Assembly (NCBI RefSeq): GCF_001907675.1
Contig: NZ_MPNT01000018.1
Coordinates: forward strand, 1-64,000
DNA from: Mycobacterium paraffinicum
Lineage (GTDB): Bacteria > Actinomycetota > Actinomycetes > Mycobacteriales > Mycobacteriaceae
Length of the DNA: 64,000 nucleotides
Direction: 5' to 3'
Of this stretch, positions 54,581 through 56,306 are shown piece by piece; positions within the stretch are counted from its first letter, which is position 1, and each line of letters opens with the position of its first letter. The position numbers were made by a program, and so were the translations under genes. The notes beneath the pieces were generated by a model. That model was given only the letters and a program-made list of their open reading frames with translations. It had not been told where the DNA came from and searched no databases.

Positions 54581-54597
54581 GTGGCAACATTTGCCAC
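54581..54597. promoter_or_regulatory. Perfect inverted repeat GTGGCAA-CAT-TTGCCAC before the cobalamin riboswitch
   Basis: A 7+7 palindrome with a 3-base centre, ending 6 bases before the riboswitch aptamer and 31 bases from the recA LexA box. It could be a protein operator, or a hairpin at the start of the leader RNA. The regulator is unknown. Confidence 0.55.
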
Positions 54598-54603
54598 CGA
54601 AAC

Positions 54604-54712
54604 GCGCTGACGGGGCCCACAGCGCCCGAGGAAACCGGTGTGAATCCGGTGCGGTCCCGCCACCGTGACCGGGATGGTCCCCTCCCGGGAGCCGGATACT
54701 CACCGTCGGCGC
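54604..54712 (+). ncRNA. Cobalamin (B12) riboswitch aptamer
   Basis: Closing helix P1 pairs GCGCTGACGG (54604-54613) with CCGTCGGCGC (54703-54712), ten pairs with one G-U. Inside are the conserved GGAAACCGGTGTGAATCCGG, GCGGTCCCGCCACCGTGACC core and the B12-box AGCCGGATACTCACC (54690-54704). It ends 52 bases before the FhuF-like gene. A downstream GGAGAGG (54743-54749) can pair with GCCTC (54711-54715), which may form the switch, but the mechanism is inference. Confidence 0.9.
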
Positions 54713-54764
54713 CTCCTCACGACAACTGGGGCGGATTTCCCTGGAGAGGCCTGGTTGTGCATAC

Positions 54765-55481
54765 ATGAACGTGCGAGACATCTCCGCCGAGCTGGCCGAA
54801 ATATCTTCCTACCAAGGGTTTTTCGCGCTGACCGTGGGCGGTGACGCGGCCGGGTGGCACCCGGTCCGGCAGTCCTACGCCGACGGGTTCACCGACTTGG
54901 TCGAGGCCACCGCCCGGCGCTATCACACGACGGATCTGCGGATCGGCGCCTCGCTGGTTCACCTCGGACACGCCACCCGCCTATGGTCACCCGTGCTCGC
55001 GTGCGCGCTGGGCCACGGCGTCGTCCCCGACCTGGGCGACCTGCAACGCGCCGACGACGGGGCGCGACTGCGGTTGCCCGCGCCGGTCGGGATCCCGGTC
55101 AGCTCACCGAACGCGCTGTACCGGTTGGTCGTGCAAGAGCACATGCAACCGCTTGCCGCCGGTCTGCGAGTGGGGTTGGCGCCCGCCCTGCTCGCGGGCA
55201 ACGTCGCGTCCGCGCTGGTCGGAGCGGCCCGCGCACTGCTCGTCGTGCGGCCCGACCTGGGCGCGCCGATCGCCGAGACGGTCCATGCGCTGCTGGGCAC
55301 CGGCGTGCTGGCCGGATCGGGTGTGCTCACCGGTCCGTCCCTGGGCTTCAGACGCCGTAGTTGCTGTCTCTTCTACCGCCTGCCCGGCGGATCCGTCTGC
55401 GGCGACTGCGTCTTCGAGAGGTCACCGTCGGACCGGACTCGGGCGCCCCGTCGTTTGCCCCACTCGCGCAAGGGTATCTGA
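54765..55481 (+). CDS. FhuF-like (2Fe-2S)-binding protein under cobalamin riboswitch control
   Basis: A 238-residue protein with a FhuF-type layout. An N-terminal helical domain (LVHLGHATRLWSPVLACAL near residue 63) is followed by a C-terminal [2Fe-2S] motif Cys200-Cys201-x10-Cys212-x2-Cys215, the diagnostic FhuF_C pattern. FhuF proteins reduce ferric siderophore complexes in the cytosol. The B12 riboswitch upstream instead suggests a substrate linked to cobalamin or cobalt; this is inference. It starts at ATG 54765 and is followed after 5 bases by a flavodoxin-like gene. H37Rv has no counterpart here. Confidence 0.88.
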   Translation: MNVRDISAELAEISSYQGFFALTVGGDAAGWHPVRQSYADGFTDLVEATARRYHTTDLRIGASLVHLGHATRLWSPVLACALGHGVVPDLGDLQRADDGARLRLPAPVGIPVSSPNALYRLVVQEHMQPLAAGLRVGLAPALLAGNVASALVGAARALLVVRPDLGAPIAETVHALLGTGVLAGSGVLTGPSLGFRRRSCCLFYRLPGGSVCGDCVFERSPSDRTRAPRRLPHSRKGI

Positions 55482-55486
55482 GCACC

Positions 55487-56107
55487 ATGCCCACCGAGAC
55501 ATCCCTGCGAGCCCTTGCGCTGACCTGTTCGTTGAAGAAGAGCCCGGCGCCGTCGAGCAGCGAGCTGATCGCCGATCAGGTGCTCGCCCAACTGCGCGGC
55601 GCGGGGGTCGGCACCGAGAAGGTGCGCTGCGTGGACCTGGCGTTGCTGCCTGGCGTGGAGGCCGACATGGGCCCGGGCGACGAGTGGCCGGCGCTGCTGG
55701 AGAAGATCAGCGCGGCGGACATCGTGGTGCTGTCGACGCCCACATGGGTCGGCCATATGTCCAGTGTCGCGCAGCGCGTTCTGGAGCGCCTCGACGCCGC
55801 GATCTCAGACAAGGACGACGCCGGACGGCCCCGGATGGTGGGCAAAGTCGCGCTCGCGGCGGTGGTGGGAAACGAAGACGGCGCACACAAGATCGTCGCC
55901 GACCTTTTTCAGGCGCTGAACGACATCGGTTTCTCGATCCCCGCGCAGGGGTGCACCTACTGGAACGGCGAGGCCATGCAGGGGACGGATTTCAACGACC
56001 TCGACGACGTGCCCGAAGCGGTGGCGGCCACGACCGAAACGGCGGCCCGCAACGCGGTCCACCTGGCGGCGCTACTGCGGCAGCACGAATACCCGCCCTA
56101 CGAATAG
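55487..56107 (+). CDS. Flavodoxin-like NAD(P)H-dependent FMN reductase
   Basis: A 206-residue protein of the NADPH-dependent FMN reductase/flavodoxin fold. The N-terminal LALTCSLKKSPAPSSSELIA forms the FMN-phosphate loop, then IVVLSTPTWVGHMSSVAQRVLERLD near residue 80 and AAVVGNEDGAHKIVADLFQALNDIGF near residue 120. It would pass electrons from NAD(P)H via FMN. It lies 5 bases after the FhuF-like gene and shares its riboswitch, so it is a probable electron source for the [2Fe-2S] protein. The ATG at 55487 is the first of the family segment. Confidence 0.87.
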   Translation: MPTETSLRALALTCSLKKSPAPSSSELIADQVLAQLRGAGVGTEKVRCVDLALLPGVEADMGPGDEWPALLEKISAADIVVLSTPTWVGHMSSVAQRVLERLDAAISDKDDAGRPRMVGKVALAAVVGNEDGAHKIVADLFQALNDIGFSIPAQGCTYWNGEAMQGTDFNDLDDVPEAVAATTETAARNAVHLAALLRQHEYPPYE

Positions 56108-56111
56108 GCAG

Positions 56112-56306
56112 TCACCACTGGTCGCGCGGGACGTCGAAGTCGACGCACAGGGCGCGCCACACGTCGCGGGGCTCGACCCCGTCCTCGATCGCCTGGGCGG
56201 CGGTGCGGCCGCCGAAACCGGTCAGCACATGGTCCGCCAGCACCGAAGACCCGTAGGCCGCACCGAATCGCAGGACGACCCGCTCGTTGAATTCCGTTAG
56301 CCGCAC
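56112..56306 (-). CDS. DUF3046 family protein (Rv2738c-like)
   Basis: A 64-residue protein with the full family sequence LTEFNERVVLRFGAAYG and HVLTGFGGRTAAQAIEDG, ending in VWRALCVDFDVPRD. The function is unknown; it is conserved beside recA/recX in mycobacteria, which hints at a DNA-repair link. It now lies 1.9 kb from recA because of the FhuF/flavodoxin insertion. Confidence 0.9.
   Translation of the reverse strand: MRLTEFNERVVLRFGAAYGSSVLADHVLTGFGGRTAAQAIEDGVEPRDVWRALCVDFDVPRDQW

Follow-up and report, generated by a model that had tools for sequence, protein, structure and literature searches.

A candidate corrinoid reductase: an FhuF-like [2Fe-2S] protein behind a cobalamin riboswitch in Mycobacterium paraffinicum

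Corrinoid cobalt must be reduced before it can be adenosylated. The reductases named in one study (CobR, PduS and a flavodoxin) are flavoproteins; PduS, which serves diol dehydratase, carries FMN and two [4Fe-4S] clusters (PMC2982820). Here we describe a possible corrinoid reductase of a different make. In a stretch of 64,000 nucleotides from Mycobacterium paraffinicum (contig NZ_MPNT01000018.1; hereafter the window), a cobalamin riboswitch aptamer precedes a gene, gene A, for an FhuF-like [2Fe-2S] protein, followed by gene B, for a flavodoxin-fold FMN reductase-like protein. The job we propose for gene A is that of PduS and CobR, the one-electron reduction of corrinoid cobalt for adenosylation. 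Unlike these flavoproteins, however, it has the FhuF fold, and Pfam finds no flavin-binding domain in it at E <= 1.

Translational control has been reported for the cobalamin riboswitches of mycobacterial metE and ppe2 (PMC11260477, PMC12713380). The window switch is likewise a cobalamin riboswitch of Mycobacterium, but precedes an FhuF-like gene instead. The words FhuF and recA are missing from the main text of both papers, as is FhuF from that of PMC8192938, PMC4428469 and PMC8088520. A 2025 review of M. tuberculosis names a PduO-type adenosyltransferase and calls the decyanation steps 'not determined' (PMC12713380). Neither 'cobalamin reductase' nor CobR occurs in its text, and in that of a paper on B12 in M. 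smegmatis the former appears only in a reference title (PMC8088520). A literature search joining FhuF and cobalamin returned, by title, nothing on such a reductase, and one joining riboswitch, cobalamin, ferric and siderophore reductase found none; most subscription papers lay outside the scope of these searches.

What would a protein of this fold do behind a cobalamin riboswitch? We consider a B12-linked role of some kind very probable. With rather less assurance, we favor the view that gene A encodes an FhuF-fold reductase of corrinoid cobalt, produced under B12 scarcity; which substrate it reduces, what donates the electrons, which way the switch turns and which oxidation step of the cobalt is involved are all inferred.

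The riboswitch and the genes behind it

On the + strand, between recA and the DUF3046 gene (56112-56306; Pfam, 103.4 bits), both on the - strand, lie in order the aptamer, gene A and gene B. An initial annotation, made from the letters alone, had located the pair there and read a cobalamin aptamer with a 10-bp P1 helix ahead of it. Both readings hold. The Rfam cobalamin family RF00174 matches 54594-54721 (+) over the whole model (1-189) with 44.2 bits against a gathering score of 31.5 (E 7.7e-8), the sole Rfam match in the window to reach gathering, and we regard the identity of this short-form aptamer as confirmed. P1 comprises 10 pairs, GCGCUGACGG with CCGUCGGCGC, one of them G-U, and the alignment of relatives shows compensated changes in it.

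The core of the aptamer was examined with R1, a model built here from 22 aptamers, 10 of them from the recA group described below. R1 scores the window at 85.2 bits (54628-54701), the window sequence itself being among the 22. At 74 bases, the window core lacks the long extension found in nine of the aligned aptamers (116-140 bases). Eight of the 18 core pairs are double-changed, a level that none of 500 shuffles matched, and 96.4% of cells are paired, with the structure in both cases taken from the same alignment. Folding the whole leader was uninformative (z 0.84).

Downstream of the aptamer lies a putative expression platform, read by eye (54726-54749, +). A P13-like hairpin, CUGGGG-CGGAUU-UCCCUGG, runs into a Shine-Dalgarno-like GGAGAGG 15 bases ahead of the ATG, and GCGG in its loop (54731-54734) could pair with CCGC (54657-54660) in aptamer loop L5. 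Inspected in the same way, nearly all of 48 riboswitches from 47 sources, of both the btu and cbt types, have a hairpin and then a purine-rich site. The loop pairing is partly compensated: GUGG faces CCGC in L056, L057 and the first switch of L051, and in L065 CGCA faces UGCG. Three of the four pairs are kept in L064 and L067, and the pairing is broken in L026 and L143. These features suggest a kissing-loop off switch acting on translation, its direction and mechanism being predictions; the proposed working resembles the occlusion described for the metE riboswitch (PMC11260477).

Gene A (54765-55481, +; 238 aa) starts 43 bases past the end of the Rfam match. Its product belongs to the FhuF family by fold and by [2Fe-2S] cluster motif. 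As first noted from the letters, it carries the pattern CC-x10-C-x2-C, and all four cysteines are invariant among 60 sequences. The comparison with FhuF profiles gave two answers. Pfam FhuF_C (PF11575) matches residues 197-216 with 35.9 bits against a cut-off of 20.5 and is the only family found, the N-terminal part matching none at E <= 1. In contrast, the NCBIfam equivalogs for siderophore-iron reductases stay well under their cut-offs: TIGR03951 at 23 of 63.85, NF007932 at 17.7 of 300 and TIGR03950 at 18.1 of 137.9. The modeled structure has the overall FhuF fold. Foldseek against the PDB returned no match at E <= 0.001; a second aligner matched E. coli FhuF, a ferric-siderophore reductase (7qp5), at 17% identity. 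Gene A thus shares fold and cluster motif with E. coli FhuF, but differs from it in this low identity, in the missed NCBIfam cut-offs and in the often B12-related setting of its family. Its closest protein relatives are in Mycobacterium sp. E1747 and M. scrofulaceum.

Gene B (55487-56107, +; 206 aa) begins 5 bases after gene A and matches FMN_red (PF03358) with 63.3 bits against 24, as the flavodoxin-fold reductase of the initial annotation should. For 55487-56104, the sole solved relative found by sequence at E <= 0.001 is 5mji/5mld, a 'BRAMP domain protein' (E 8.8e-22); 'BRAMP domain' as a search name found nothing in the literature, within the scope given above. Gene B cannot be the fixed partner it was first taken for, as a relative is present in only 15 of the 35 recA loci described below (one frame-broken) and in 7 of the 37 in a second, overlapping set. 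The broken copy, L032:6677-7122, is matched across two frames. We also considered whether the flavodoxin-like gene travels with the switch and rejected the idea: taking R1 >= 60 bits as intact, the switch is intact in 4 of 14 loci with the gene versus 13 of 20 without it (Fisher p 0.08, the loci not being independent; L035 omitted for want of upstream sequence). Gene B is an optional neighbor and a possible electron donor of gene A.

Genomic settings of the FhuF-like family

A genome scan for near relatives found 35 loci, 34 titled Mycobacterium and one Mycolicibacterium vulneris. The pair had been described as an accessory insertion; this does not fit, since recA adjoins the FhuF-like gene in 33 of the 35 orthologous loci and the other two (L014, L035) are contig ends. 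In the second set recA adjoins in 36 of 37, the exception, L047, being a member of the transporter group. The switch is more variable than the gene. An aptamer reaches Rfam gathering in 17 of the 35 loci; R1 detects one in 22 of the 34 with upstream sequence, 17 strong (67-92 bits) and five weakened (31-48 bits), and in 24 of the 37 loci of the second set. With no detectable aptamer in 12 of 34 and a weakened one in five more, B12 control cannot be needed everywhere. In the alignment, some of the 12 show remnants (for example, L022 and L029) and others no aptamer, which suggests that the FhuF-like gene has persisted through several losses or weakenings of its switch. The deepest species sampled at this locus in our tree (L028, L031, L033) have no aptamer; either loss or a later gain may explain this. 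As a separate matter, the recA match in L022:3576-5717 and L028:3685-5817 is split in two by a gap of about 1 kb, as from an intein-like insertion.

Across the genus, 166 of 248 genomes have a homologue of the FhuF-like protein. To the earlier loci we added 68 more distant places taken from the matches listed, and grouped them by identity; above about 65% identity, the loci examined are the matches returned as such. Partial matches in four genomes were set aside: in G016:C46, G125, G114:C99 and G130 the gene is matched in pieces, possibly through decay or a cut at a contig end.

In the group at 50-66% identity (27 loci: L060, L093-L118), 21 have a riboswitch upstream in the same orientation, and 20 of these show the order riboswitch, BtuF-, BtuC- and BtuD-like genes, FhuF-like gene. 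The transporter genes of one locus, L060, were typed by Pfam as Peripla_BP_2, FecCD and ABC_tran. In L113 the switch immediately precedes the FhuF-like gene. The group at 37-46% (23 loci: L048, L049, L052, L119-L138) has a riboswitch upstream in 17, and in all but L121 the FhuF-like part shares a stop-free frame with a BtuD-like ATPase; Pfam confirmed one such fusion as ABC_tran plus FhuF_C. In L048:3349-3599 and L049:3136-3436, two cobalamin aptamers stand back to back on opposite strands ahead of the btu operon. Near two of the fusion operons, PPE-family genes (PF00823 with PPE-PPW; L048:8482-10489, -, and L052:11322-13277) follow a cobalamin riboswitch, which hints that PPE proteins might be involved in the passage of B12 across the outer membrane. 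Other 'PPE' matches, some 3.4 kb upstream of FhuF, were discarded as an artefact of a query reading frame that started inside a riboswitch.

The most distant group (<= 39%; 30 loci: L050, L051, L053-L057, L061, L139-L160) has a different setting. In 17 loci the gene is divergent from an operon for the large, medium and small subunits of a diol dehydratase of the adenosylcobalamin-dependent type and its reactivase; the 5 kb ahead of the FhuF-like gene hold no riboswitch in any of the 17. Five of the 30 have btu-like neighbors, four of these with a switch. CbtA occurs in three (facing strand in L142 and L155, same strand in L157) and MTHFR_2 in two. In the latter two, a methylenetetrahydrofolate reductase gene of mycobacterial type is found upstream of the FhuF-like gene: in L050 (9393-10901, -) it is MTHFR_2 and follows a cobalamin riboswitch, and in L153 it is a 70% match. 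Overall, the switch is common where the FhuF-like gene accompanies supply genes and absent from the 17 loci with the adenosylcobalamin enzyme. Control would therefore fit use, shut off by B12 where the protein serves supply but not where it serves a B12 enzyme, as roles in supply and in maintenance would require.

A scan of the class found matches in 91 of 296 genomes, some of them from the genus. It lists 96 places, 81 outside the genus; 60 of these were examined, the other 21 being nearly all lower-scoring, and with eight from an earlier scan they make a sample of 68 loci (G484 and G041 were left out; G050 was already included as L066). A B12 link, meaning a riboswitch or CbtA, is present in 16. 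The riboswitch-btu-FhuF order recurs in L170 and L216, and riboswitch-CbtA-FhuF in L064, L065 (as CbtB-CbtA-FhuF), L067 and L211, where the switch is seen by R1 only and lies under Rfam gathering. Seven carry CbtA on the facing strand (L175, L179, L189, L191, L194, L201, L213). Of the 52 unlinked loci, some lie near ABC-transporter matches (for example, L066, L171, L173 and L203), the stretches of L207 and L217 hold aptamers elsewhere, and others have non-B12 neighbors, among them a glycosyltransferase, a NIPA-like transporter, a peptidase and a two-component system. The B12 link is thus usual in the examined mycobacterial loci; beyond the genus it is one of several settings, given these 52 loci and the neighbors of some.

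The lone arrangement seen in the window, riboswitch then FhuF-like gene, also recurs: in the window clade, L113 and L051 and, outside the genus, in L162, L163 and L165, each reaching Rfam gathering. L163 also carries a Guanidine-III riboswitch (2212-2279, +; 42.4 bits). Because genomes with a match list one to seven aptamers, we estimate the chance that a given gene has one on its own strand in the preceding 4 kb at no more than about 0.3%. Many homologues, then, follow B12 riboswitches or adjoin btu or cbt genes, and the cobalamin-linked redox role first proposed is supported; consistent linkage to siderophore genes did not appear, although these were not searched for as such.

How did the window clade come by its switch? 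We built a quick-search maximum-likelihood tree of 101 proteins, with 14 recA-group rows chosen by hand and none of L036-L047, L068-L092 and L161-L220. The 14 recA-locus rows, with L116 (no recA adjoining), have as their sister group 14 rows, 10 of them riboswitch-btuFCD-FhuF (SH-aLRT 96 for the join), and the 17 diol-dehydratase rows form one branch (SH-aLRT 99). A homologue of the permease BtuC was found in none of 40 recA-clade genomes, 33 placed directly at the recA locus and seven counted by at least 69% identity to the window protein, versus six of six control genomes with btu operons; G095, not an intended control, also has none. Whereas homologues of the window protein sit in operons for a BtuFCD-type cobalamin importer, the window clade keeps the FhuF-like gene, often with its switch, minus the permease. 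Since this clade is sister to a btuFCD-linked one yet holds no BtuC, the simplest history would be that switch and reductase were once members of an importer operon whose transporter genes were later lost. L113 seems to be another such case. The absence of BtuC also means that the function is not confined to that importer, and a role in the recA clade would fit a corrinoid that enters by another route or is made in the cell. BacA is named the sole cobalamin transporter of M. tuberculosis, and M. smegmatis homologues of BtuFCD are named with their function given as unknown (PMC8088520).

Proposed corrinoid reduction and its rivals

The feature common to B12-type import, cobalt import and B12-dependent enzyme settings is the redox state of corrinoid cobalt. 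A potential of -0.36 V is enough to reduce cob(III) easily. E. coli FhuF has this potential at pH 7.4 (PMC8068687), and the cob(II)/cob(I) couple lies at -0.61 V in free form but at about -0.36 V when bound to the adenosyltransferase (PMC2982820). Because the family's settings share corrinoid cobalt redox chemistry, the FhuF potential fits and the switch tracks supply as against use, we think a corrinoid reductase the probable function of gene A. A cytosolic FhuF-fold protein would have exchanged ferric siderophores for cobalt corrinoids as its substrates. At low cell cobalamin, the riboswitch would admit the ribosome and the protein would be made. Electrons would pass from NAD(P)H to a flavoprotein (the adjoining FMN reductase if present, another donor elsewhere) and on to the FhuF-like protein, which in one-electron steps would take the cobalt of a scavenged or newly made corrinoid from Co(III) to Co(II), with release of cyanide or water, and possibly, with the corrinoid bound to the adenosyltransferase, onward to Co(I). 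This reduction would feed adenosylcobalamin formation; with cobalamin abundant, the aptamer would close and translation stop.

Several points weigh against this model. The known substrates of FhuF are ferric siderophores, and the modeled fold cannot discriminate between substrates; the cluster region of the model is itself of low confidence (block means 73, 50 and 53 over residues 201-230). Our context tests relied on FecCD and Peripla_BP_2 types, which siderophore importers share. No upstream riboswitch appears in six loci of the 50-66% group (27 in all), in six of the 37-46% group (23 in all) or in the 12 recA loci above; no B12 neighbor was found in three of the 30 most distant (L145, L148, L150), and 52 of 68 loci outside the genus are without the link. 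A potential of -0.36 V could not drive free cob(II) to cob(I), although transferase-bound cob(II) matches. An obligate role in a BtuFCD-type importer is excluded for the recA clade, with BtuC in none of 40 genomes.

Some of these points would suit an ordinary ferric-siderophore reductase that has fallen under B12 control, for example because iron or iron-sulphur supply matters for B12 metabolism. Such a protein would share fold and cluster motif with E. coli FhuF, could be expected at the unlinked loci outside the genus, and might stand beside FecCD and Peripla_BP_2 transporters, which also serve siderophores. Against it are the equivalog scores, far below their cut-offs, and the riboswitch, CbtA, diol dehydratase and ATPase-fusion contexts, which indicate corrinoids; no siderophore synthesis gene appeared among the hand-picked neighbors run against Pfam, although no systematic search was made. 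We consider it unlikely. Also improbable is a substrate that is not a corrinoid but a cobalt ion or chelate, reduced from Co(III) to Co(II) at cobalt uptake. This idea draws on the CbtA neighbors: the four riboswitch-CbtA-FhuF loci, the facing-strand genes of seven loci beyond the genus and two within it, and the same-strand gene of L157. The fusion with a BtuD-like ATPase and the diol dehydratase context, for their part, call for no cobalt-ion chemistry.

The protein might also leave the corrin itself alone and pass electrons to an adenosyltransferase or MetH complex, or itself act as a decyanating trafficking protein. PduS has been argued to be an electron-transfer protein only (PMC2982820), the match between -0.36 V and transferase-bound cob(II) would serve this idea too (PMC8068687, PMC2982820), and decyanation is an open step in M. 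tuberculosis (PMC12713380). The ATPase fusion, however, places the protein at the importer rather than the transferase, and no adenosyltransferase family was found among the neighbors run against Pfam, a part of all neighbors; we judge the idea doubtful. The least credible proposal is a B12-independent substitute enzyme, induced without B12 like metE. B12 off switches often control such isozymes, metE in M. smegmatis being an example (PMC8088520), but some homologues of gene A stand next to a B12-dependent enzyme and have no riboswitch (17 of 30), and others stand next to B12-type importers and do have one. Among the options raised by the initial annotation, the best fits are reduction of corrinoids and assistance in their uptake or assimilation; the backup enzyme sits poorly with the BtuD-like ATPase fusion and the link to an adenosylcobalamin-dependent dehydratase.

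A wider proposal, on which we are evenly divided, is that FhuF-fold [2Fe-2S] proteins make up an unrecognized family of corrinoid reductases in the Actinomycetota: an importer-fused branch that reduces its substrate on entry, a branch that holds the cofactor of diol dehydratase in reduced form, and the window branch, which has outlived its importer and often keeps a riboswitch of its own. If so, the importer-fused branch would mirror the release of siderophores by FhuF, and the family would fill the open step of cobalt reduction and decyanation in actinobacterial B12 metabolism. With its ties to importers of the B12 type, to cobalt transporters and to a B12 enzyme, an FhuF-fold family is a concrete candidate for a corrinoid reductase, and it predicts that some proteins now annotated as 'iron reductase' or '(2Fe-2S)-binding protein' act on cobalt corrinoids.

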